Source: Phytoactinopolyspora mesophila
GTDB lineage: Bacteria > Actinomycetota > Actinomycetes > Jiangellales > Jiangellaceae
Direction: 5' to 3'
Assembly (NCBI RefSeq): GCF_010122465.1
Contig: NZ_WLZY01000005.1
Span: 1-64,000 of the forward strand
Length of the DNA: 64,000 nucleotides
Made by a program: the position numbers and the translations under genes. Below the pieces are notes generated by a model, which was not told the origin of the DNA, did not search any database, and worked only from the letters and a program-made list of their open reading frames with translations. Numbering within the stretch: the stretch's first letter is position 1; the number at the start of each line of letters is the position of its first letter. Below, piece by piece: positions 3,134 to 49,750 of this stretch.

Positions 3134-3889
3134 ATGCCGGGAGGCAGGCTCACTCAGCAAGAACGTCAGCAGATCGCGCTGGGTCTGGCGGACGGCATTG
3201 CCTACGCGGAGATCGCCAGGCGTCTGGACCGCCCCACCTCAACCATCACGCGTGAGGTGATGCGCAACGGCGGTCCCGGTGCTTACCGCGCCGAGCTGGC
3301 TCACCGCGCCACCGAACGCCGGGCTCGCCGGCGCGGTCGGGCAGCGGCCCGAGGAGCGAAGGTGCCCCCACATGCGCATGGACGCGACGCCGACGCCGTA
3401 CGCGAGTATGAGGAGACGTTCACCACCATGCTCATGCAATCGGGCTTGCCCAAGATGATGTCGCGGGTGCTGACCTGTCTCTACACCACGGACGCAGGCA
3501 GCCTCACCGCGTCCGAACTCGTCCAGCGCCTCGGGGTCAGCCCGGCGTCGATCTCCAAAGCGATCGCGTTCCTCGAGGGCCAAGACCTCGTCCGCCGCGA
3601 ACGCGACGAAGGTCGCCGCGAGCGCTACGTCGTCGACGACGACGTCTGGTACCAGGCGATGGTCGCCAGCGCGCGATCCAGCACGCAGCTCGCCGAAACG
3701 GCACGGCAAGGCGTCAACATCCTCGGGCCGGACACCACGGCCGCCGCCCGCCTCGAGAACATCGCCCGGTTCATCGACTTCGTCGGTGAGAGCACAATGC
3801 GCGCCGCGGAGCAGGCCCGGGAGATCCTCCACACAAAAGCCGAAACGACCTCGGCGGCGTTGGCGACGCCACGTTCACGTCGTGGCTAG
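3134..3889 (+). CDS. Two-HTH regulator: IS30-like HTH plus MarR/GbsR
   Basis: A 251-residue DNA-binding protein with two predicted helix-turn-helix domains. Residues about 5-50 (LTQQERQQIALGLADGIAYA then EIARRLDRPTSTITREV) resemble the N-terminal HTH of IS30-type transposases. Residues about 90-190 form a MarR/GbsR winged helix (ELVQRLGVSPASISKAIAFL and the wing RERDEGRRERYV). A basic linker joins them. The start has an excellent ribosome site, GAAGGAGAT. It probably controls the divergent DUF4097 gene and itself through the box array between them. It converges on the SIS gene with only 4 bp between stops. Confidence 0.82.
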   Translation: MPGGRLTQQERQQIALGLADGIAYAEIARRLDRPTSTITREVMRNGGPGAYRAELAHRATERRARRRGRAAARGAKVPPHAHGRDADAVREYEETFTTMLMQSGLPKMMSRVLTCLYTTDAGSLTASELVQRLGVSPASISKAIAFLEGQDLVRRERDEGRRERYVVDDDVWYQAMVASARSSTQLAETARQGVNILGPDTTAAARLENIARFIDFVGESTMRAAEQAREILHTKAETTSAALATPRSRRG

Positions 3890-3893
3890 CCCG

Positions 3894-4697
3894 CTAATCC
3901 AGGTAGAAGATGTTCTCCCGGTGCTCGCGGAGCAATGCGTCGTTGCGCTCCGCCCCGCCGTCGATGTTCGCCGAGAGGAAGACCGGCGGTGTGAGCCCAC
4001 GGGCCAGCATGCCGTCGATCACCGCCGCCATCAAGGCGTGCAAGATGGCCGTGGCGGCCACGCCGGACGCCGGCCCGAACGGTTGCGGCACGCCGTCGTC
4101 GGTAAGCACCGCGTCGCCCACCGGCACTTTGGTGTCCAGCACGATGTCGCTGATGTCGATCAGCCGCTCACCAGAGGCATCCCGGGCGGGTAGGTCACCG
4201 TAGGCGGACGATGTCACCGCGACCACCGTCGCACCGAGTTCACGCGCGCTCTGTGCGGCCTGGACCGGCATCGCGTTACGTCCCGACAACGAGACGATGA
4301 TCAACACGTCGCCAGCTCTCAGCGGGCTGGTCTCGATCAGCGCGGGGGCGTAACCGGAGAGCCGCTCGAGCTTGGACGTCAGGGTTGCCGGGCGCACCGT
4401 CATGCTGTCCACGCCTGGTCCGAGCAGCGGATTGACGAGCATCAGCCCGCCGGCCCGGTACACGATCTCCTGCACGGCCAGCGCCGAATGGCCGCACCCG
4501 AACGCGAACAACCGCGCGCCTCCGGCGATCGACTCAGCGATCCGGCCGCCGACCTCGGCGACGTTCTCCGCTTCGTCGTCGGCGATCTGCTGGAGAATGC
4601 CGATGGCCGCGTCGAGATAGCGGCGGGCTGCGGGCATGGGGGTGGTGCTGGCGGGACCAGCCGATGGGCTTGCTGGCACTGGTGCGCTCCTCTGCAT
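3894..4697 (-). CDS. SIS-domain sugar phosphate isomerase (UPF0309-like)
   Basis: A 267-residue SIS-fold protein of the kind annotated as sugar isomerase domain or UPF0309, related to amino-sugar phosphate isomerases. Visible features are the FGCGHSALAVQE loop near residue 63, the IVSLSGRNAMPV phosphosugar-binding loop near residue 133 and the C-terminal NIDGG segment. UPF0309 genes often sit with N-acetylglucosamine genes. It lies 27 bp downstream of the gntR-type regulator in the same direction and is probably co-transcribed with it, opposite the PTS operon. Likely role is conversion of the phosphorylated sugar delivered by that PTS; the exact substrate is unknown. Confidence 0.78.
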   Translation of the reverse strand: MQRSAPVPASPSAGPASTTPMPAARRYLDAAIGILQQIADDEAENVAEVGGRIAESIAGGARLFAFGCGHSALAVQEIVYRAGGLMLVNPLLGPGVDSMTVRPATLTSKLERLSGYAPALIETSPLRAGDVLIIVSLSGRNAMPVQAAQSARELGATVVAVTSSAYGDLPARDASGERLIDISDIVLDTKVPVGDAVLTDDGVPQPFGPASGVAATAILHALMAAVIDGMLARGLTPPVFLSANIDGGAERNDALLREHRENIFYLD

Positions 4698-4724: not shown

Positions 4725-5513
4725 CTAGATCATTCGGCGGCGGGTGGGTGCCCCGCCGTCGGCCGGGACGTCGAGAGACGCCCGGAGTTGGTAACGGTCG
4801 CCGCGGTACCGGGAGACCACGTATTCGATGGGTTTGCCGCCAGAGGTGGTGACACGTTCGAGCAGTAGCATCGGACTGCCGCGCGGCACCCCGAGCAACT
4901 CTGCCTCGGCGGCACCGCTGGACACGGCCTCGATCGATTCTTCGCCCGCATCCAGGACGACTCCGAACTCTTGCTCCAGAGTCTCGTACAGCGACTGGTT
5001 CTCCAGGTCGCAGGCAAGCAAGTCCGGTGCTATCGCCGCGGGCACGTGTGTCCGCTCGATGGCCATCGGGATGTCGTCGGCCAGCCGCACCCTTTCGATC
5101 ACATGAATGTTGGCATCCGACGGAATCTCCAGGAGCTTGCCGATCACCCGGCCGGCCGTGGTCGTGCGTTGTTCGAGGACCCGAGCTCCCGCGCGTACGC
5201 CGCGGGCGTTCATGTCGCTGGTGAACGACGTGAGCCGAACCGGAAGCCGAACCTTGCCGGGTGCGACGAACGTCCCCCGGCCAGGGACGCGATAAAGACG
5301 GCCTTCGGTGACCAGCAGGTCGAGCGCTTGGCGCACGGTCATACGAGCCACGCCGTATTGCACGCCGAGGACCCGCTCGGACGGAACCGGAGCGTCCGGC
5401 TCGAGGTCGGAGATGGCATCGAGGATGAGCCCTCGCACCTGGGCATGTTTCGGTACCGGGCTGTGCGGATCCACGCTGCCGTGGGCCGGTGTCCGACCGT
5501 GCTCAGCCGCCAT
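4725..5513 (-). CDS. GntR/HutC-family (DasR-like) transcriptional regulator
   Basis: A 262-residue repressor with an N-terminal GntR winged helix (PVPSERVLGVQYGVARMTV, near residues 30-50, then GRLYRVPGRGTFVA) and a C-terminal UTRA effector domain (IERTHVPAAIAPDL to VVSRYRGDRYQLRA). The frame continues far upstream as antisense of the PTS gene; the ATG at 5513 is chosen because GGGAGG lies 8 nt before it and it precedes the HTH. UTRA domains of this group bind phosphorylated sugars. It is divergent from the PTS IIC gene with a dre-like operator between, so it most likely represses the PTS until sugar phosphate accumulates. Confidence 0.88.
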   Translation of the reverse strand: MAAEHGRTPAHGSVDPHSPVPKHAQVRGLILDAISDLEPDAPVPSERVLGVQYGVARMTVRQALDLLVTEGRLYRVPGRGTFVAPGKVRLPVRLTSFTSDMNARGVRAGARVLEQRTTTAGRVIGKLLEIPSDANIHVIERVRLADDIPMAIERTHVPAAIAPDLLACDLENQSLYETLEQEFGVVLDAGEESIEAVSSGAAEAELLGVPRGSPMLLLERVTTSGGKPIEYVVSRYRGDRYQLRASLDVPADGGAPTRRRMI

Positions 5514-5571: not shown

Positions 5572-5587
5572 GCCGGTCTAGGCCAGT
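5572..5587. promoter_or_regulatory. dre-like operator for the GntR regulator
   Basis: GCCGGTCTAGGCCAGT matches 13 of 16 positions of the Streptomyces DasR-responsive element (ASTGGTCTAGACCAST). It sits in the divergent gap between the GntR gene and the PTS IIC gene, where a repressor of both would bind. The consensus is established; its use here is inferred. Confidence 0.6.
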
Positions 5588-5654: not shown

Positions 5655-7094
5655 GTGGATGTCCTCGAGTTCATCGCCAATAACATATTCAACGAGGTAG
5701 CGATTCTGATCGGCCTGATCACCCTGGTCGGGCTGGTTCTGCAGCGCAAACCCGTTGACGACGTGGTCGGCGGCGCGGTCCGGGCCACCGTCGGCATCAT
5801 CATCTTGTTCATCGGCGTCGAAGTGTTCGTCGGCGGCCTCGCGTCGTTCCAGGCCATTGTCGCCAGCGCGGTGGGTCTCGATCCGCCGGCCGCGACCAAT
5901 ACCCTCGACGGCTTCCTCGGCTCGCACGGTGGCAACGTAGCGATGATCATCACGTGCGGATTCATCCTGCATCTTGCCTTGGTCCGGATCTTGAAGACGC
6001 GCTACGTGTACCTGACCGGACACCTGCTGTTCTGGATGTCGCTCGTCGTGACCGCCTGCATCGTCCAGGCATTCGGCGAGATCGATCAGTGGCGCCTGGT
6101 CCTGGTGGGCTCGATCATCGTCGGTTGCTACTGGACCGTCCAGCCGGTGTTCATCGCGCCGATGATGCGCAAGGTGATTTCCTCGGACGACTGGGGATAT
6201 GCCCACACCAGCTCATCCGTGGCCTGGATCGCCGGTAAGGTCGCGCCGCTCGCCGGTGACCCGAAGCAGCACGACATCGAGAAGATCCATGTGCCGAAGA
6301 AGTTCTCCTTCTTCAAGGATGTCACCGTCTCCACTGCCGTTGTCATCGGCGTGATCATGCTGGTCGGTCTCATCTTCGCCGACAGCGACGTCGCCGCGGA
6401 ACAGGCAGCCGCCTACGACCCGGAGATCAACAGCTGGGTGTGGGGATTCATCGCCGCGTTGCGTTTCGCGGCAGGCATCGCGATTCTGTTGTACGGCGTG
6501 CGGATGTTCCTGGCGGAGATCGTGCCCGCATTCACCGGCATCAGCCAGAAGGCCATTCCTGGCTCCCGGCCGGGCCTGGACGCGCCCACCATCTTCCCGG
6601 TGGCGCCCACGGCCGTCATGGTCGGTTTCCTCACGACAACCGTGACCTTCCTGATCTTGATGGGAGTCTTTGCCGCGGCCGGCTGGTTCGTCTTGGTGCC
6701 GCCGATGATCATGCTCTTCTTTGTCGGCGCCGGCGCCGCGGTCTACGGCAACGCATTCGGCGGCTGGCGGGGTGCGGCGCTGGCGGGTGTGATTACCGGC
6801 TTCGCGCTGGCCTTCGGCCAGTGGGCCGGCTGGCATCTGCTCTCCGACACCGCTCCGGAGCTCGCCACGCTGGCCGACCCCGACTGGTACCTGATGATCC
6901 TGGTGGTCCTCGGCCTCGGTGAACTCTTCTCGGGGCTTGGCGAGAATGCCGTGCTGCTCGTGGGTGTCGTCATCGCCGCGGTCTTCGGTGTCTGGTTGTG
7001 GATTCTCAAGCGCATCCAGCGGCGCGCCGGAGAGCCAGTCACCGGTTTGGAGAAAGAATCGGAGCTGACCGAACAGTCCTCCGGAGAACAGTGA
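5655..7094 (+). CDS. PTS transporter subunit IIC, Ula/SgaT type
   Basis: A 479-residue polytopic membrane protein of the ascorbate-type (Ula/SgaT) PTS IIC family. It starts IANNIFNEVAILIGLITLVG and keeps the family pattern of ten or more hydrophobic helices, with the VQPVFIAPMMRK loop near residue 160. The GTG start follows AGGGAGGGA. It heads an operon with IIB and IIA in separate genes, the usual Ula order of membrane subunit then IIB then IIA. Actinobacterial Ula-type systems may carry sugars other than ascorbate, so the substrate (acidic or amino sugar) is open. Probably repressed by the divergent GntR regulator. Confidence 0.88.
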   Translation: MDVLEFIANNIFNEVAILIGLITLVGLVLQRKPVDDVVGGAVRATVGIIILFIGVEVFVGGLASFQAIVASAVGLDPPAATNTLDGFLGSHGGNVAMIITCGFILHLALVRILKTRYVYLTGHLLFWMSLVVTACIVQAFGEIDQWRLVLVGSIIVGCYWTVQPVFIAPMMRKVISSDDWGYAHTSSSVAWIAGKVAPLAGDPKQHDIEKIHVPKKFSFFKDVTVSTAVVIGVIMLVGLIFADSDVAAEQAAAYDPEINSWVWGFIAALRFAAGIAILLYGVRMFLAEIVPAFTGISQKAIPGSRPGLDAPTIFPVAPTAVMVGFLTTTVTFLILMGVFAAAGWFVLVPPMIMLFFVGAGAAVYGNAFGGWRGAALAGVITGFALAFGQWAGWHLLSDTAPELATLADPDWYLMILVVLGLGELFSGLGENAVLLVGVVIAAVFGVWLWILKRIQRRAGEPVTGLEKESELTEQSSGEQ

Positions 7095-7101
7095 GAATGA
7101 G

Positions 7102-7404
7102 ATGAATCAAGCGAATCGTGAACTGAAGGTCCTCACCGTGTGTGGCGTGGGCATGGGCAGCAGTCTGATCCTGCGGATGAACGCGGAGAAGGCGCTCAGC
7201 ACCCTCGGGGTCAGCGCGAAGGTGGAGCACACCGACGTATCGTCGGCGCGCAGCATGAAAGCCGACGTGGTGATCGCGCAAGGCCTGCACACCGACGACC
7301 TCACAGGTGTGGCCCCGGTAGTCATCCCGATATCCAACTTCATGGACGTCGACGGACTGCGCCAGCAACTCGATGAGGCACTGCGCGGGCAGGGGTGGCT
7401 CTAG
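7102..7404 (+). CDS. PTS subunit IIB, Ula/SgaB type
   Basis: A 100-residue cytoplasmic phosphocarrier. The motif VCGVGMGSSLIL holds the phosphorylated cysteine at residue 14, followed by the short Rossmann-like IIB fold and the VVIPISNFMD C-terminal strand. The ATG lies 7 bases after the IIC stop, so the genes are co-translated. It takes phosphate from IIA and gives it to the sugar bound to IIC. Confidence 0.9.
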   Translation: MNQANRELKVLTVCGVGMGSSLILRMNAEKALSTLGVSAKVEHTDVSSARSMKADVVIAQGLHTDDLTGVAPVVIPISNFMDVDGLRQQLDEALRGQGWL

Positions 7405-7405
7405 C

Positions 7406-7864
7406 GTGGGTGGTGCCGACACTGACCAGCCAGTGATCAAGGCCGTGACGGAGGTGCGGGTCGCCGATTGGCGGGCAGCGGTACGGGCGGCATGCCAGCC
7501 GCTGGTCGACGCCGGCGCCGTCGAGGCCCGGTATGCCGACCGATGCGTCGACATGGTCGAGGAGCACGGACCGTACATGGTGCTGGCGCCGGGTCTGGCG
7601 CTGGCGCATGCCCGGCCCGAGGACGGCGTCAATCGGCTGTGCCTGGCTTCGGCCACACTGGCGGAGCCGGTCTCCTTCGGGCATCCGGACAACGACCCTG
7701 TCGACGTCGTGCTGGCCTTCGGCTCGCCGGACGACTCCAGTCATATCGGCCTGTTGCAGAAGCTCGCGGAGCATCTGCTGAGCGGGCTCGCGGACACCTT
7801 GCGCCAAGCGCCTGATCAGGCGACAGCAGTTCAGGCGCTCAGCAATGTGGTGGGGGACCTGTAG
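7406..7864 (+). CDS. PTS subunit IIA, mannitol/Ula type
   Basis: A 152-residue IIA phosphocarrier of the mannitol/fructose/Ula type. EEHGPYMVLAPGLALAHARP carries the active histidine (about residue 68, in the AHARP motif) that receives phosphate from HPr. I use the GTG at 7406, one base after the IIB stop, because it is tightly coupled; an ATG 33 bases upstream inside IIB is possible. Together with IIC and IIB it completes the transporter. Confidence 0.88.
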   Translation: MGGADTDQPVIKAVTEVRVADWRAAVRAACQPLVDAGAVEARYADRCVDMVEEHGPYMVLAPGLALAHARPEDGVNRLCLASATLAEPVSFGHPDNDPVDVVLAFGSPDDSSHIGLLQKLAEHLLSGLADTLRQAPDQATAVQALSNVVGDL

Positions 7865-7884
7865 TAGAGGAAAGGAAGGCCAAC

Positions 7885-9243
7885 GTGGCACGTAAGCGCG
7901 CGCTCGTAACTGGAGGAGCGGCGGTCGCCGTCTTGCTGGCGCCGGTGATCGCGGTAGCGGATGAGCCCGGCACAGACGAAGCCGCTGCCGGCCAGCCGTC
8001 ATCGGACTGGCGACTGGTCCAATCGGAGAACTTCGGCCGGATGATTCCGTCCGACGACACCGGCTGGTTCCGGGACAAGGACGGCCCGGGAAGCCCGTAC
8101 GACGTCGACCATTACGACAACGACGGAGACTATTTCCGCACGTTCGGCGGCGAGACGTTCGACGAGCATCTGGACGGAATCGACCTGTACCGGCGATCGT
8201 TCACCCTGGGCCGGGACGGCTGGCTGACCGCGGAACTGGCGGCCCGGGACACCGACGGCACCGGCGTCGAGAACGAGGCCCCGAGTTTCACCCGATCGAT
8301 GCTGCGCGGTGCCGGGCCGACGGGCAAGTTCGACGTGCCGACTCACCACGGCGGCGTGATCCTGCGTTCCACCGATCCGCTGCCGGAGGAGTACCGCATC
8401 GAGACCACCCTGCGCGCTATCGACTTCGGTGGTCAGCGTGGTGGCGAATGGGATTACGACGGCTTGGTCAATGGCTACGTGCCCACTGGATGCAAGACAT
8501 TCTTCCCGTGGGCCGGCGGCACGACATGGAACTACGACCAGGACGAGTGTGACTTCCACGACGTCACAACGGACTCGAACGGGTTCTACTACCTGTCGAT
8601 CATGGACTACGACCGGCCGGCGCCGCATAACAATGTCTTCATCCACACCCACCGCAAGGTGGTCATGGATGGGTACAACCGTTACCGCTACACCGGCAAC
8701 GGGCTGCGGTACTGCGACCCCAACACCGGGGAGCTGCAGCCATACGAGTGGGGCAGCGGCAATGGGGTCAACATGCTGTTCATGATCCCGGAGAAGCGGT
8801 ACGCCAACCAGCCGGGAACCGAGTACCTCATGCACAGCGAGTGCGGTACCGAGGTCGGCGGAGGCATTGTCAGTCAGGTGGACCTGATGCCTGAGCTGAT
8901 GCCGAGAGAGAGCTACACCTTCGCCATCGAACGCCGTGACGGCGCCTACGTGCTCGAGGTGACGGGCAACTTCCGGCACGTCGGGCACCGGACCGTCCGA
9001 TACGAGCAGCCGTTCGACGACGGCGAGAACCCGATCTGGCATTACAACCAGAGGGCTGACGAGTACGACGGCCGCTACAACCGGGACTGGACCTACACCT
9101 CGCCCGACGCGACGTTCGTCGACGAGGACGTCTGGCCGGCCGGTTCGGCGTACCCTGACTACTTCCTGATCGGGCAGCCGCACATGAACTACTACGAGGG
9201 CAGTGCGCACATCGACAACGTCCGTCTCTATGTGCCGCGCTGA
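7885..9243 (+). CDS. Large secreted protein, PTS-linked, function unknown
   Basis: A 452-residue protein with a clear Sec signal peptide (KR followed by about 17 hydrophobic residues to AVA, cleavage near residue 25). The mature part is rich in Tyr, Trp, Asp and Gly (for example WNYDQDECDFHDV and NRYRYTGNGLRYC), with several cysteines and a beta-rich look ending in SAHIDNVRLYVPR. That closing strand resembles concanavalin/LamG-like jelly rolls of carbohydrate-active proteins, but I recognise no named family. It starts with GTG after GAGGAAAGGAAGG, 20 bp past the IIA gene, so it is probably the last gene of the PTS operon. An extracellular glycan-binding or glycan-cutting role is inferred from context only. 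Confidence 0.8.
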   Translation: MARKRALVTGGAAVAVLLAPVIAVADEPGTDEAAAGQPSSDWRLVQSENFGRMIPSDDTGWFRDKDGPGSPYDVDHYDNDGDYFRTFGGETFDEHLDGIDLYRRSFTLGRDGWLTAELAARDTDGTGVENEAPSFTRSMLRGAGPTGKFDVPTHHGGVILRSTDPLPEEYRIETTLRAIDFGGQRGGEWDYDGLVNGYVPTGCKTFFPWAGGTTWNYDQDECDFHDVTTDSNGFYYLSIMDYDRPAPHNNVFIHTHRKVVMDGYNRYRYTGNGLRYCDPNTGELQPYEWGSGNGVNMLFMIPEKRYANQPGTEYLMHSECGTEVGGGIVSQVDLMPELMPRESYTFAIERRDGAYVLEVTGNFRHVGHRTVRYEQPFDDGENPIWHYNQRADEYDGRYNRDWTYTSPDATFVDEDVWPAGSAYPDYFLIGQPHMNYYEGSAHIDNVRLYVPR

Positions 9244-9277: not shown

Positions 9278-9322
9278 ACTGAGTGACGCTCACGCCAACG
9301 GTTGGCGTGAGCGTCACTCAGT
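9278..9322. terminator. Perfect 22-bp inverted repeat, terminator
   Basis: Bases 9278-9299 and 9301-9322 are exact reverse complements around one base, an extremely strong hairpin built on GACGCTCACGCC. It lies 34 bp past the end of the PTS operon and before the next gene, as a terminator would. No T-run follows. Confidence 0.75.
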
Positions 9323-9454: not shown

Positions 9455-11239
9455 GTGGCTATTCGATCATCGGCATTCACGACGAGACCTGAACTCGCCG
9501 GCTCGTACGGCATGGTCGCCTCGACGCACTGGCTGGCGTCGCAGGCCGGCATGTCGGTCTTGGAGCGCGGCGGTAATGCTTTCGACGCGGCGGTAGCCGC
9601 CGGCTTCGTCCTCCAGGTGGTCGAGCCGGAGATGAACGGTCCCGGCGGCGAGGTGCCTATCCTCGGGCGGAGTGCGGGAGACGAGGAACCGTTTGTCGTG
9701 TGCGGCCAGGGCACTGCTCCCGCCGGGGCGGACATCGACACACTGCGCGGACTGGGCCTCGACCTCATCCCGGGCAATGGACAGCTGCCGGCGTGTGTTC
9801 CCGGGGCCTTCGGCGCGTGGATGACGCTGCTTCAGCGGCACGGCACAATGCGACCGGGTGATGTGCTGAGGTACGCCATCGAGTACGCGGGCGGCGGATT
9901 TCCCATCGGGCTTTCGGCCGTGAACACCATCGCCAGCGTCACACCGTGGTTCCAGGCGCACTGGCCGAGTTCGGCACGGTTGTGGTTACGGTCGGGGGCT
10001 CCGCCAGCACCTGGTTCCCGCTTCGTCAACGCCGAACTCGCCGCGACCTACCAACGCATCGTCGATGAGGCACACGCCGCCTCTCAAGACCGCGACCAGC
10101 AGATCGATCATGCGCTTCGCAGCTTCTACCAGGGCTTCGTGGCCGAGGCGATTGCCGATCAAGCCGGCGTGGAGGTCATGGACATCAGCGGCCGGGCACA
10201 TCGAGGCCTGCTGAGCTACGAAGATCTCGCCGGCTGGCAGGCTGGGATCGAGCGACCGGTCATGGTCGATTATCACGGATATTCCGTGTTCAAGCCGGGC
10301 CCGTGGAGCCAGGCGCCGGTTTTCTTGCAGCAGCTCAGGTTGCTTGAAGGGTATGACCTGGCGGCGATGGACCCGTGCGGCCCTGAGCTCATCCACACGG
10401 TTGTCGAGTCGGCGAAACTGGCCTTCGCCGATCGCGAGGCGTTTTACGGCGACCCGTCGTTCGCCGACGTGCCGCTCGACGAGCTTCTCTCCCGGGAGTA
10501 CGCCGCCGAGCGGCGCAAGCAGGTCACGGACGCCGCCGACGCCGGCGACCTGCGCCCTGGAAACCCAGGTGGACGAGCCGGGCGGTTGCCGGTGCTCCGC
10601 CCGGCGCCCCAACTGCCGGCTGGACGTGGCATCGGCGAGCCGACCCTGGGCCCCGTCGAGGGCGACACCTGCCACCTCGATGTGGTGGACCGGCACGGCA
10701 ACGCCGTCTCCGCGACGCCCAGCGGGGGCTGGCTGCACAGCTCACCGGCCATGCCCGGGCTCGGATTCTGCCTCGGCACTCGGGCGCAGATGTTCTGGCT
10801 GGAAGAAGGGCTGCCGAACTCACTCGCGCCGGGAAAACGGCCGCGGACCACGTTGACACCGTCGATGGCTATACGCGACGACGAGGTGATCGCCTTCGGC
10901 ACACCCGGCGGCGATCAGCAGGACCAGTGGTCGCTGCTCTGGTTCCTCCGGCACGTTCACCATGGGTTGAATCTGCAAGAAGCCATCGATGCGCCCGCGT
11001 GGCACACCACTCATTTCACGTCGTCGTTCTACCCTCGGGCCGCCTATCCAGGACGGCTTCATGTCGAGGCCCGGGTGGGTGGGGAGACCGCGCGTGCGCT
11101 GCAGGAACGCGGGCACGACGTCGTCGTCGAAGGCGACTGGAGCCTGGGCAGGATGTCAGCGGCGTCGTACAGGGCGGATGGCACCCTGCGGGCCGCGGCG
11201 AATCCTCGCGGCATGCAAGGGTACGCGGTCGGCCGCTGA
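9455..11239 (+). CDS. Gamma-glutamyltransferase family protein
   Basis: A 594-residue Ntn-hydrolase of the gamma-glutamyltranspeptidase family, which cleaves gamma-glutamyl bonds of glutathione-like compounds. The GG-NAFDAAVA helix near residue 39 and the NGPGGE segment near 61 belong to the large subunit. EGDTCHLDVVDRHGNAVS places the autocatalytic nucleophile threonine at about residue 405. No signal peptide is evident, so it may act in the cytoplasm, unlike classic secreted enzymes. The GTG start has a poor ribosome site. It stands alone between two intergenic regions. Confidence 0.88.
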   Translation: MAIRSSAFTTRPELAGSYGMVASTHWLASQAGMSVLERGGNAFDAAVAAGFVLQVVEPEMNGPGGEVPILGRSAGDEEPFVVCGQGTAPAGADIDTLRGLGLDLIPGNGQLPACVPGAFGAWMTLLQRHGTMRPGDVLRYAIEYAGGGFPIGLSAVNTIASVTPWFQAHWPSSARLWLRSGAPPAPGSRFVNAELAATYQRIVDEAHAASQDRDQQIDHALRSFYQGFVAEAIADQAGVEVMDISGRAHRGLLSYEDLAGWQAGIERPVMVDYHGYSVFKPGPWSQAPVFLQQLRLLEGYDLAAMDPCGPELIHTVVESAKLAFADREAFYGDPSFADVPLDELLSREYAAERRKQVTDAADAGDLRPGNPGGRAGRLPVLRPAPQLPAGRGIGEPTLGPVEGDTCHLDVVDRHGNAVSATPSGGWLHSSPAMPGLGFCLGTRAQMFWLEEGLPNSLAPGKRPRTTLTPSMAIRDDEVIAFGTPGGDQQDQWSLLWFLRHVHHGLNLQEAIDAPAWHTTHFTSSFYPRAAYPGRLHVEARVGGETARALQERGHDVVVEGDWSLGRMSAASYRADGTLRAAANPRGMQGYAVGR

Positions 11240-14892: not shown

Positions 14893-15780
14893 TCACGCGT
14901 CCGGGTGGACCACCTGGTGGGTGGACGCGAGAGCGGCCACGGAGGCGTCGTACGTTCGCTGTGCGACGCCGAGGTAGATGCAGTCCACCACAGCCAGCTG
15001 CGCGATCCGGCTGGCCATCGCGCCGGAGCGGAACTTGGACTCTTGGGCGGCGGTGGTGAGCACCAGGTCGGCATGGGCCGCGAGCGCCGACTTCGCGTAG
15101 CTGGTGATGGCTACCGTAGTGACGGCATTCTGATGCGCGTGCCGCAGCCAGGCGACGATCTCGTCGGTATCGCCGCTGTGCGACAGCGCGATGGCGACGT
15201 CGTCGGTCGTCATGAGCGCTGCCGACGCAAGCGTGAGATGGGGGTCGGCGATAAATAGCGCCACCCGGTCGATCCGCAGCAGTTTCTGCTGCAAGTCCTG
15301 CGCTGCGAAGGTACTGGCGCCGAGGCCGAACAGACTGACTCGTCGAGCGTCGACGACGGCGTCGATCACCTGGCCGAGGACGTCGAGATCGAGTTCGTCG
15401 ACGGTGTCCTCGATGGCACGGGTGTCGGCGTAGGCCACCTTGCGAACGAGCTCTTCCAGCGTGTCTTCGCGGCCGATGTCGGTTCCCGGCGCGTAGTCGT
15501 CCGGCCGTCGGGCGTGATCCCGGCCGAGTTCAGTCGCCACCGCCAGCCGGAGTTCGGGGTAGCCGCGAAAGCCGGCGGTGCGGCAGAAACGGACCACCGT
15601 GGTCTCGGAGGTCTGACATGCCTGGGCGACCTCGGTGATCGTCTTCTCGACGACGAATGACGGGTCCGAGAGGATGGCCTCGGCGACCCGCCGCTCCGCG
15701 GGCGCGAGAGTGGGGGCAAGGGCGCGGACGTGTTGCCGCACGCCACCGGACCAGCCACGTGGTGTCGCATCCGTTGCCAT
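14893..15780 (-). CDS. MurR/RpiR-family regulator with SIS domain
   Basis: A 295-residue regulator with an N-terminal RpiR HTH (ITEVAQACQTSETTVVRFCR, about residues 46-65) and a C-terminal SIS phosphosugar-binding domain (SLFGLGASTFAAQDL and AIALSHSGDTDEIVAWLRHA). The ATG at 15780 follows GGGAGGAG. It lies 46 bp downstream of the NamZ-type gene in the same direction. The pairing suggests it senses MurNAc-6-phosphate or a related amino-sugar phosphate and controls cell-wall sugar recovery. Ligand is inferred. Confidence 0.85.
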   Translation of the reverse strand: MATDATPRGWSGGVRQHVRALAPTLAPAERRVAEAILSDPSFVVEKTITEVAQACQTSETTVVRFCRTAGFRGYPELRLAVATELGRDHARRPDDYAPGTDIGREDTLEELVRKVAYADTRAIEDTVDELDLDVLGQVIDAVVDARRVSLFGLGASTFAAQDLQQKLLRIDRVALFIADPHLTLASAALMTTDDVAIALSHSGDTDEIVAWLRHAHQNAVTTVAITSYAKSALAAHADLVLTTAAQESKFRSGAMASRIAQLAVVDCIYLGVAQRTYDASVAALASTHQVVHPDA

Positions 15781-15826
15781 TGCTTGCTCCTCCCGAGGGT
15801 GCCCGGCGCCCCATTCGCGCGGGTTC

Positions 15827-17020
15827 TTAGTAGAGCAGTGTCTCGTCAGCGGTCCAGTCGGCCGGCGCATAAGGTTCATCGGATCCAGCCGACGCGAGGA
15901 AGGACTCAGGTTCCTCGCCCGCATCGATGCTTTGCCGGAGGAGGTCGCTGCCCCAGAGCAGGTCGATGAAGTGGCGGTCGTTCGAGCCGGGGCCCGCGCG
16001 CCAGCCGAAATCGTCCGGATAGAGCTCCCGCAGCACGCTCAGCATGACGGTACCGGTGCGCACTGGCGCGAACGTCCGGCGGTCGGTGATGTATACCTGC
16101 ACGCCGCGCAGTGTTTCGCCCGCATGTTTGTGGAAGGTCGGAGAGAAGCGGACAGCACGGAATCGCGCTCCGGGCAGCTTCCGTTCGTTCAGTGCGGCGG
16201 CCCACCGGCCGTCCACGTACGGGGCGCCGATGAGTTCGAACGGCCGTGTGGTGCCGCGTCCTTCGGACAGGTTGGTGCCTTCGAAGAGGCCAGTTCCCGG
16301 GTACACAAGCGCGCTGTCCAGTGTGGGGATATTGACCGACGGCATCACCCACGGCAGGCCGGTTTCGTCGAAATATTGGGACCGAATCCACCCGGTCATG
16401 GTGATGACCTGAAGGTCCGCGGGGCGACCGGCGTCGGCTTCGACATCGGCGGCATTCAAGTGCCGGGCGAGCTCGCCCACGGTCAATCCGTGCCGGATGG
16501 GAATCGCGCGCCGGCCGACGAAGCTCGCATAGTGCGGTGTCAGCAGCGGGCCCTCAGCCAGTAGGCCGCTGACCGGATTCGGCCGGTCCAGCACTACGAA
16601 AGGGATCTCGAGCCGCGCCGCGCTGACCATGAGGTCGTACATCGTCCAGATGTAGGTGTAGAAGCGGGTGCCGATGTCCTGGAGGTCGAACACCAGCGTG
16701 TCGACGCCGGACGCCCGGACCAGCTCGTCGAGTGCCGCGCCGCTGTGCCGGTAGGTGTCGTATAGGGGGAGCCCGCTTTCCGGGTCGATGGCGGCGGACT
16801 CGCTCTCACCAGCCTGAGCAGTGCCCCCCAAGCCGTGTTCGGGCCCGAACAGTGCACTCAGCCCAACTTCCGCGGCAAGCAGCGCGGTCACATTCGGCTG
16901 GAGATCGGGCATGACGCCCGTGTAGTTGGTGACCAGGCCGATGCGCCGGCCGTCGATCAGGGTCGGGTCTTGGCAGAGGCGCTGGGCGCCCGTGCGGGTT
17001 GCCTGGTTCACGTTCGCCAT
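15827..17020 (-). CDS. namZ: Exo-beta-N-acetylmuramidase, NamZ/DUF1343 family
   Basis: A 397-residue member of the DUF1343 family, whose Bacillus subtilis member NamZ releases terminal MurNAc from peptidoglycan fragments. Family segments visible are GLVTNYTGV near residue 28, LFGPEHGLGG near 57, DLQDIGTRFYTYIWTMYD near 111, FVVLDRPNP near 140 and NLSEGRGTTRPFELIGAPY. B. subtilis NamZ is secreted; here I see no signal peptide, so a cytoplasmic role on imported muropeptides is possible. The murR-like gene follows in the same direction, supporting a MurNAc catabolic unit. Confidence 0.85.
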   Translation of the reverse strand: MANVNQATRTGAQRLCQDPTLIDGRRIGLVTNYTGVMPDLQPNVTALLAAEVGLSALFGPEHGLGGTAQAGESESAAIDPESGLPLYDTYRHSGAALDELVRASGVDTLVFDLQDIGTRFYTYIWTMYDLMVSAARLEIPFVVLDRPNPVSGLLAEGPLLTPHYASFVGRRAIPIRHGLTVGELARHLNAADVEADAGRPADLQVITMTGWIRSQYFDETGLPWVMPSVNIPTLDSALVYPGTGLFEGTNLSEGRGTTRPFELIGAPYVDGRWAAALNERKLPGARFRAVRFSPTFHKHAGETLRGVQVYITDRRTFAPVRTGTVMLSVLRELYPDDFGWRAGPGSNDRHFIDLLWGSDLLRQSIDAGEEPESFLASAGSDEPYAPADWTADETLLY

Positions 17021-48024: not shown

Positions 48025-49750
48025 CCTCGATCCACCGATCGGCTGGCAAGAGCTGAGGTGGTTGTTCCCGTCGGGGTGTGAGGTTGCCAGGACGTGAGGA
48101 TCCGCCGGACCTCGTTGTCCGGTTGTTCCATTTTGTGGTCCTCGTATCGCGCAGCGGTGGCTGCTGGGTGGTCAGGTCGTGAGGGCTGAGGGCGGGTCGT
48201 TGACTCGGTTGAACAGTGCCGTCCAGGCGGTTTTCCAGGGCCAGGCGTGTGGGAGGTGCAGGGTGATGCGTCGGGCTGAGGACGCGACCCTCGCGGGCAC
48301 GGTGATCAGTGTGCGACGGATGGTCGCGGTGGTCGCCTTGGCCAGGTCGGGCTTGGTGAGGCTGGCGGCGGCGCGGGTGAGGTTGAACGCGATGACCGCG
48401 AGCACCAGCCAGGCCGCGTTCGCGGTGAACACCCCGGACGGCAGGTGTGCAAGCGCGGAGTTCTTCAGGTCGGCGTGGACCTGCTCGATGACCGCGTGGC
48501 CGCGGTGGGTCTTGTCGGCTGCGACGGTGTCGAGGACCTGGGGATCGGCGGTGGTGAAGAACGCGTGGAACCGCCATAGGTCGAACAGGGTGTCCTGGCC
48601 GGCTGCCTTGTGCTTGTCGGCGTTGAAATCCGGGATCCGGCGGATGACGAGCCGCCCAGCAACGTGGTCGGCCTTCTTCTGCGCGGCGAACGCGGTGAAG
48701 TCGATCTCGGTGACCTCGGCGACCGAGATCCAGCGGCCGGTGGCTTCGTCGAAGACGGCGTCGGTGTACTCGATCGTCGTCCACGCGTCGTCGGGAATCG
48801 CGGCGATGGCCTTCTTAACTGCGGTGTCCATCCGCACGGTGACCGACACGTCGGCGCCACCGGCCAGGGCGGCGTGTACTGCTCGGCGGCCGTAGTACGC
48901 CGAGTCCATCCGCACCAGGATCAGCTGCTGCTTGCCGAGCAGTCGCCGGGTGGTCTTCACCGCGTCGCCGACCAGGCGCTTTGCGCCGCGGGGCGATCCA
49001 GCCGCGCCCTTGCGCAGCCTCTGCGCCACGATCACCGGCGCCGTCGCCGCGGCAGCCACAGGGATGGTGAGGGTGGCCAGCAGCGCGTTCAAGCCACGCA
49101 CCCCGGAGTAGCCGAACCCCGCGCCCTGTTTGGCATGACCGTGGACCTCAATGATGGTGTCGTCAACATCGACCAACGCGTACCCGGCCTCGCCTTCGGT
49201 GTCATCGGCCTCGTCCACGGCAAGGTCGGTCCTCGCGCCGAGGAGTCGGGTGAGTCCGGCCAGCGCGATCAACAACCGGGATGCGATCGCATCGAGCTGG
49301 CGGACGTGGCCGAACGTGAAGGCCCGCAGGAACGTGCCCAACGTCGAGGGGGCGTAGGCCCGGGCGAACAGCCGCCCCATCCCGCCATGTCGCAACAGGG
49401 CCATGTCGTCGATCGAATCGGCACCCGCGACCATCCCGCCGACCAGCGAGCTCACCTTCAGCCCAGCGTTCGCGCCCTTGTCCGTCGGCACACTCAAATG
49501 CTCCTCGGCCAGATCCCGAAGCCCCGCGGACTCCGCCAGAGCAAGCACCGGAACCAGACCGCCAGCCGACACGAGATTCGGATCATCGAAGGCTACCGAG
49601 GTCCGACCAAGGGTGTGAGAGAGTCGCATCCCAGAGGTGCCCTTCCGGGTTGAGGTCTTTGGAACCGTCGCAAGTCCCAATCTCCCAGCCCGTAAGGGCA
49701 TCCTCGCGTTACGGCACGCTCACCCCACCACTCTCATCGGTGGATCGAGG
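48025..49750 (-). mobile_element. IS1380-family insertion sequence, intact
   Basis: A 1726-bp element bounded by perfect 15-bp inverted repeats, CCTCGATCCACCGAT at 48025-48039 and its complement at 49736-49750. Both sides carry the 5-bp target duplication CTAAG (48020-48024 and 49751-49755). One intact transposase fills it. The element separates the small acidic frame from the epimerase gene and looks recent, since ends and ORF are undamaged. Confidence 0.92.
48172..49629 (-). CDS. IS1380-family transposase
   Basis: A 485-residue DDE transposase of the IS1380 family. ALVDVDDTIIEVHGHAKQGA carries the first catalytic Asp region, ILVRMDSAYYGRRAVHAALA the second, and AVIEQVHADLKNSALAHLPS the Glu region. 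I start at the ATG at 49629 (RLSHTLGRTSVAF), since the upstream extension reads into the terminal repeat side. No frameshift; probably active. Confidence 0.92.
   Translation of the reverse strand: MRLSHTLGRTSVAFDDPNLVSAGGLVPVLALAESAGLRDLAEEHLSVPTDKGANAGLKVSSLVGGMVAGADSIDDMALLRHGGMGRLFARAYAPSTLGTFLRAFTFGHVRQLDAIASRLLIALAGLTRLLGARTDLAVDEADDTEGEAGYALVDVDDTIIEVHGHAKQGAGFGYSGVRGLNALLATLTIPVAAAATAPVIVAQRLRKGAAGSPRGAKRLVGDAVKTTRRLLGKQQLILVRMDSAYYGRRAVHAALAGGADVSVTVRMDTAVKKAIAAIPDDAWTTIEYTDAVFDEATGRWISVAEVTEIDFTAFAAQKKADHVAGRLVIRRIPDFNADKHKAAGQDTLFDLWRFHAFFTTADPQVLDTVAADKTHRGHAVIEQVHADLKNSALAHLPSGVFTANAAWLVLAVIAFNLTRAAASLTKPDLAKATTATIRRTLITVPARVASSARRITLHLPHAWPWKTAWTALFNRVNDPPSALTT

Follow-up and report, generated by a model that had tools for sequence, protein, structure and literature searches.

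Why does an operon for a sugar phosphotransferase system (PTS) end in a gene for a large exported protein? The question is raised by positions 5655–9243 of a 64,000-nucleotide stretch of Phytoactinopolyspora mesophila DNA (contig NZ_WLZY01000005.1, positions 1 to 64,000; hereafter the window), part of a 6.5-Mb genome; at this locus the closest relatives that bear a name are species of Phytoactinopolyspora. Four genes, all on the + strand and separated by gaps of 7, 1 and 20 nucleotides, form a tight IIC-IIB-IIA-SEC operon, SEC being our label for the secreted protein. As the original prediction had it, SEC is the last gene and encodes 452 residues with an export signal, its N terminus (MARKRALVTGG...APVIAVA/DE) reading by eye as a Sec-type signal; the predicted richness in aromatic and acidic residues was likewise borne out, whole SEC containing 15.9% Asp plus Glu and 13.3% Phe plus Trp plus Tyr, the highest values for both among the 20 window proteins compared (SEC included). 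From the observed co-occurrence and shared candidate operator sites described below, we infer that SEC and the PTS very probably function as one unit. That the unit is a nutrient-scavenging regulon, in which a secreted, glycan-active SEC feeds an amino-sugar PTS, is a reading to which we give an even chance.

Co-occurrence of SEC with the Ula-type PTS, a check proposed with the original prediction, was assessed in 345 genomes from the order to which Actinomadura and Nocardiopsis belong (which we take to be Streptosporangiales). IIC was counted as close at E values up to 1e-100 and SEC as close in groups a (>660 bits) and b (530–620 bits) only; matches of groups c–f were not entered, and a few weak ones (e.g. 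in G817) were not placed in groups. Close IIC was present in 57 of the 58 genomes with close SEC versus 10 of the 287 others (Fisher p 1.7e-53, uncorrected for kinship), and the association extends over several genera; this check did not refute the prediction. Among the 67 of 345 genomes with close IIC, SEC lay within 10 kb in 47 (40 divergent, 4 on the same strand and 3 convergent) and was farther away or on another contig in 12. Partial SEC matches in G755, G759 and G767 were entered for this distance count only, and one further G755 fragment was left out; G755 is a close-SEC genome by virtue of a full-length group-b gene, and both G755 and G767 stand among the 47 near pairs through their partial genes. 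In G767 (locus L122) and G755, the SEC genes near the PTS unit are apparently broken, and intact copies lie elsewhere.

The linkage takes several forms. SEC is last in the PTS operon in Phytoactinopolyspora and directly upstream of IIC in a Georgenia metagenome-assembled genome (MAG); in Actinomadura and its kin it is divergent from a GntR-IIC-IIB-IIA-SIS unit or lies inside the operon, and in three Nocardiopsis it is about 3.4 kb from IIC. At five SEC loci of the first scan (L019, L020, L021, L023 and L026) the PTS was not within the fetched stretch; close IIC was found elsewhere in their genomes (G452–G455 and G458) in all but G453, and in G458 a second SEC sits in the PTS operon. That genome-contig scan gave 13 SEC loci, in Phytoactinopolyspora, Nocardiopsis, Allonocardiopsis, Actinomadura and the Georgenia MAG, and searches of plasmids and viral contigs found no SEC relatives. 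SEC profiles matched 91 of the 345 genomes of the order above, often with 2–3 paralogues. A phylum-wide sample of 396 genomes, counting the window's own, gave 2 matches; the class to which G129 belongs gave 1 among 66 genomes, and the family that includes the Georgenia MAG gave 1 among 213. Seven of 60 near relatives, again with the own genome, match SEC; in four of these the homologues are all distant or weak. Within the genus, SEC is present in 3 of 5 genomes, own included, and G001 has none; the match in G004 is weak (E 5e-4) and to a protein unlike SEC by eye, and IIC is absent there too.

Candidate operator sites connect the two components where the genes are apart. The divergent gntR gene of the window encodes a protein of GntR plus UTRA architecture (PF00392 and PF07702) whose nearest characterized and structurally solved relatives, YvoA (NagR; 5.8e-48) and DasR (1.4e-45), place it with the DasR/NagR regulators. 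An operator-like 12-mer, TGGTCAATACCA, agrees at 10 of 12 core bases with the DasR dre element as given in one account, A(G/C)TGGTCTAGACCA(G/C)T (PMC4398421). It was found upstream of SEC in 14 of the 57 loci examined, including two with no PTS nearby (L023 and L092), and was absent from those of the 57 linked to ATP-binding cassette (ABC) importers. Exactly two copies exist genome-wide in each of G455 (7.9 Mb) and G765 (9.0 Mb), one before SEC and one before an unlinked PTS unit, the two lying on separate contigs or at a distance of 488 kb; in G455 the PTS-side copy lies directly before gntR. Over 12 genomes, all chosen for having SEC, 15 of 18 copies fall at SEC or PTS promoters; the other three, two of G456 and one of G728, lie elsewhere. 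With 72% G+C assumed, about 1.3 copies would be expected by chance in 103 Mb, and the reversed sequence, used as a control, gave 0. That unlinked loci have such operator-like sites in common speaks for joint regulation of SEC and the PTS, and because exact copies are so rare in the 7.9- and 9.0-Mb genomes, the regulon hypothesis is directly testable.

There are further candidate sites. The sequence TGGTCAATACCAC between SEC and gntR is common to 9 of 9 aligned divergent Actinomadura-type loci, the block enclosing the window candidate CGGTCTAGGCCA at 5574 is also present in L014 and L022, and a dre-like CGGTATAGACCG precedes the PTS in the Nocardiopsis loci L015–L017, where an operator search gave nothing convincing common to the PTS and SEC promoters. 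A scan for GTnTAnAC and perfect palindromes was uninformative. Elsewhere in the window genome, two dre-like sites at about 4051–4076 of L132 precede a gene for a NAGPA phosphodiester glycosidase and one at about 3880 of L133 precedes a gene for a Golvesin_C/M23 protein, both products looking exported by eye; these cases are suggestive only.

SEC itself had been described as of unknown family, and the search for a confident match to a known one left that description standing: there was no significant match by sequence in Pfam, NCBIfam, PHROG or PDB, and Pfam run over 14 members gave just two one-member matches (E 0.04–0.06). Eight weak PDB-profile matches to the rubisco small chain (best E 0.045) were taken as chance. 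A literature search over titles and abstracts, with most subscription journals outside its scope, found no described family or system of the SEC–PTS kind, and one search found only the NagS paper discussed below.

For the predicted structure of SEC, AlphaFold2 was run on 56 members (pLDDT 94.5, pTM 0.94), a first run on 17 sequences (pLDDT 51.6) having been discarded. In this confident model the 413-residue mature protein is one unit, a two-sheet beta-sandwich of concanavalin A-like topology with about 200 extra residues; the beta-sandwich foreseen in the original prediction is thus retained, and its confinement to one end of the protein is not. The best Foldseek match was the PL7 alginate lyase AlyA5 (E 4.7e-5, query TM 0.32), with other PL7 alginate lyases, an ulvan lyase and high-ranking legume lectins among the neighbours, and matches in a viral structure library were mostly unnamed or concanavalin-like. 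By VIA, the best Z of 14.3 belonged to ERGIC-53-type lectin domains (root-mean-square deviation 3.5–3.8; 206–212 of 413 residues aligned in the top five rows), so that roughly half of SEC is extra to the shared fold. Among the 50 rows listed, values of Z 13–14 were tied over lectins, GH16, PL7 and accessory domains of GH43 entries, which singles out no one catalytic relative. The GH16 catalytic strand motif, which we take to be E-x-D-x-(x)-E, and the PL7 motifs, presumably R[ST]E[VL]R, Q[IV]H and YFKxGxY, were each found in 0 of 56 members by regular expressions over whole sequences, and no GH16 Pfam match was seen in the 14 members scanned. Conservation is nonetheless extensive, with 42 polar, aromatic or Cys positions (four Cys among them) conserved at 96% or above, and H254, R257, K258, D262, E173, D241, E349, E358, Y423, D425 and E438 (full-length numbering) invariant in 56 of 56.

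A tree of the 56 members splits into clades of 38 and 18 with support 100/100. By partner labels that depend on the 3.4–20 kb of DNA available per locus, PTS neighbours occur in 21 of the 38 and a ribose-type ABC importer in none, whereas 13 of the 18 have such an importer, 12 of them with an aldehyde dehydrogenase too, and none has a PTS. The broken L122 gene was left out of the alignment, and the places of the long branches L058, L049 and L018 are unsure. Twelve SEC paralogues (L058, L108–L111, L113, L114, L117–L120 and L123) have a conserved RbsA-type ABC importer and an aldehyde dehydrogenase encoded no more than about 8 kb away, and some ABC-linked loci also have an IclR-type regulator by eye. 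The same exported fold beside two kinds of sugar importer would fit a secreted protein that acts on glycans and yields a different product in each clade. Pfam recognizes an F5/8 type C domain at the C terminus of one SEC relative, L112, and L113, L114, L120 and L123 have by eye a similar extension; together with the concanavalin fold, the fused domain fits capture or cutting of a glycan. Action of SEC on carbohydrate is accordingly highly likely, judged by fold, fused domain and transporter partners. The SEC neighbourhood of L096 (2654–9545) encodes a PIG-L deacetylase with an attached CBM9 domain and what looks by eye like an ABC sugar importer.

Evidence on the imported sugar comes from the PTS and its neighbours. 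The IIC matches EIIC-GAT in Pfam (9.5e-90) and PRK09410 in NCBIfam (415 bits, cut-off 380), and the separate IIB and IIA match PTS_IIB and PTS_EIIA_2 in Pfam and the UlaB and UlaC models below cut-off, which makes this a PTS of the Ula/SgaT type. NCBIfam scans of 9 window proteins matched no ascorbate catabolic family. "Ula-type" names a family, and given the neighbouring genes an amino sugar is a better fit than ascorbate. The SIS-domain protein encoded next to gntR (PF13580, 6.5e-39; PRK02947 above cut-off) aligns with NagS SCO4393 (PDB 9eol_A) at E 8.1e-71 and 52% identity. The NagS side chains H53, S54, R64, S91, E94, S119, S121, D179 and N228 are kept 9/9 in the SIS proteins of the window, L014 and L049; the other six PTS-linked SIS proteins compared have 29–36% identity and S91T. 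NagS is an N-acetylglucosamine 6-phosphate (GlcNAc-6P) dehydratase whose reaction, according to the abstract, is limited to Streptomycetaceae, and section 10 of the same paper reports that of four relatives assayed only one, 65.5% identical, was clearly active (PMC12680351).

A second indication is the locus of G129, a genome of another class (L049, 11813–19899), where a SEC relative (47% by BLAST) ends a same-strand run of genes. These encode an AgaS/GlmD-like, deaminase-like SIS protein (truncated where the fetched DNA ends), the PTS components IIA, IIB and a divergent IIC, NagA (272 bits against a cut-off of 226), a NagS-like SIS protein, a kinase of the hexose-kinase type and an aldolase of class II. 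By its gene content this run looks like an N-acetylhexosamine pathway, perhaps of N-acetylgalactosamine (GalNAc) type. The neighbour-gene lines, indirect as they are, agree on an amino sugar, which we regard as somewhat favoured.

These observations may be joined in one scheme. The NagR/DasR-like regulator would sense a phosphorylated sugar and, by binding the candidate operators, control the Ula-type PTS and SEC. SEC, with its invariant polar and charged residues, would work extracellularly on a glycan and release a small sugar, most likely an N-acetylhexosamine, which the PTS would import and phosphorylate, and the NagS-like SIS protein and further enzymes would process the phosphosugar inside the cell. 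The scavenging system of the original prediction, in which the secreted protein captures or cuts a glycan for the PTS, thus gains partial support from the co-occurrence, the shared sites, the lack of a known family, and a fold and domain fusion that suit glycan capture or cutting; glycan binding or cutting and import of the product stay at the level of inference. Its remark that function followed from position only is now too weak, candidate regulation, fold and substrate class having been added. Tentatively, and with less than even expectation, we propose in full that SEC founds a new carbohydrate-active enzyme family releasing N-acetylhexosamine and feeding an amino-sugar, not ascorbate, Ula-type PTS, with NagS-type chemistry in the cell and a sister clade serving a ribose-type ABC importer.

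Three other explanations were weighed. If the unit is real and the sugar is not an amino sugar, the PTS would import ascorbate, uronate or another small sugar and SEC would be a lyase or hydrolase for the matching polymer. The UlaA family membership of IIC, by name and by solved relatives, the lyases among the fold neighbours and the ribose-type ABC importer and aldehyde dehydrogenase of the sister clade speak for this; with no ascorbate catabolic family among the scanned window proteins, regulator and SIS neighbours of amino-sugar type and NagA in the G129 run, we consider it unlikely. SEC might instead be a non-catalytic lectin or adhesin whose binding of glycan brings substrate or cells together for the PTS, as the ERGIC-53-type domains at the top of the VIA rows, the high Foldseek rank of legume lectins and the missing GH16 and PL7 motifs would allow. 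Eleven invariant charged, His or Tyr positions are, however, probably more than a simple sugar site needs, one relative already has a separate F5/8 type C domain, and by eye no surface anchor was seen in the window SEC. The lectin explanation is therefore doubtful, and SEC is probably an enzyme. Finally, PTS units without SEC and SEC genes without a PTS exist, as they would if SEC were an unrelated secreted protein in the operon by chance; linkage recurring in different layouts and several genera, with sites shared in trans, makes this very improbable.

Several points weigh against the scavenging scheme itself. Relatedness of the genomes makes the Fisher value overstate independence, 8 of the 67 IIC genomes have no SEC among the matches listed, and G453 has a close SEC and only a divergent IIC; G010 and G012 (same family, other genus) have an IIC unit of 78–79% with no SEC beside it, as has the second IIC unit of G129 (64%). 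Exact TGGTCAATACCA is absent at the Nocardiopsis SEC promoters, at L026, L104 and L105 and at the unlinked group-b genes, and the pattern YGGTCTAGRCCA gave 5 rows (4 distinct sites) in the window genome versus 8 for the reversed control, hence no enrichment of the dre-like pattern there. Catalytic residues of SEC could not be assigned, and the GH16 and PL7 motifs are absent in the 56 members. The kinase and AgaS/GlmD-like matches of G129 fall below curated cut-offs, and no nagA was found beside those close-SEC units outside G129 that were inspected by eye. NagS relatives at 26–36% identity had no or negligible GlcNAc-6P dehydratase activity, as section 10 of that paper reports (PMC12680351). 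Should the scavenging scheme be true, SEC would represent a new family of secreted proteins active on glycans, a PTS family labelled "ascorbate" in databases would acquire a substrate class other than ascorbate, and a NagS-like protein would belong to a defined catabolic unit beyond the Streptomycetaceae.

Features of the SEC–PTS locus in window coordinates
Feature	Position	Strand	Basis or remark
SIS-domain phosphosugar protein, NagS (SCO4393)-like	3894–4697	−	
GntR/UTRA regulator gene gntR	4725–5474	−	Nearest solved relatives YvoA, DasR
CGGTCTAGGCCA, dre-like candidate operator between gntR and IIC	5574–5585	not assigned	10/12 match to TGGTCTAGACCA
PTS EIIC, Ula/SgaT type	5655–7094	+	EIIC-GAT, PRK09410, solved relatives
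PTS EIIB	7102–7404	+	PTS_IIB (Pfam); phosphocysteine loop CGVGMGSS read from sequence
PTS EIIA	7406–7864	+	PTS_EIIA_2 (Pfam); listed open reading frame start 7373, GTG at 7406 likelier
SEC, 452 amino acids, exported, predicted concanavalin fold, no recognized family	7885–9243	+	
Probable Sec signal peptide, residues 1–25	7885–7959	+	Sequence reading
21-bp perfect stem with 3-nt loop, probable operon terminator	9278–9322	+	

The regulator and SIS genes, neither of which was named in the original prediction, are divergent to the PTS operon. A ribosome-binding site, GAGGAAAGGAAGG, lies directly 5' of SEC, and those of the other operon genes are plausible. The hairpin begins 34 nt past the SEC stop (z −7.4 versus 200 shuffles) and was not among the matches of a consensus scan for T-tailed terminators; a promoter and terminator scan gave nothing useful. 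The next gene downstream, of the gamma-glutamyltransferase family (9455–11239), begins beyond the hairpin. About 6 kb downstream of the operon is another amino-sugar unit, an RpiR/MurR-type regulator adjoining a NamZ exo-beta-N-acetylmuramidase (14893–17020). The window also encodes a regulator in which an HTH_38 domain precedes a MarR domain (3134–3889) and a DDE transposase (48172–49701).

Compared with known systems, the window SIS protein resembles NagS in sequence and in all nine tested side chains and differs in adjoining a PTS operon outside Streptomycetaceae, the family to which the abstract limits the reaction (PMC12680351). Window IIC, IIB and IIA belong to the families of the UlaA/UlaB/UlaC ascorbate PTS and differ in company, no ascorbate catabolic family accompanying them among the 9 window proteins scanned. 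Like aga (GalNAc) operons, the G129 run combines a PTS with NagA, an AgaS/GlmD-like protein, a SIS protein, a kinase and a class II aldolase. The PTS of E. coli aga is of the mannose family, and no such secreted protein is known from that operon. With the concanavalin A-like superfamily (GH16, PL7, legume lectins and ERGIC-53) SEC shares its predicted fold at VIA Z of about 13–14 over some 180–210 residues, from which it departs in its 7–15% identity in the listed rows, its additional residues, four invariant Cys and the motifs missing from the 56 members. The DasR and NagR-YvoA amino-sugar regulons, finally, have a related GntR/UTRA regulator and, on the dre core as cited above, a similar candidate operator, whereas the window combines a local regulator with a Ula-type PTS and a secreted protein of no recognized family.

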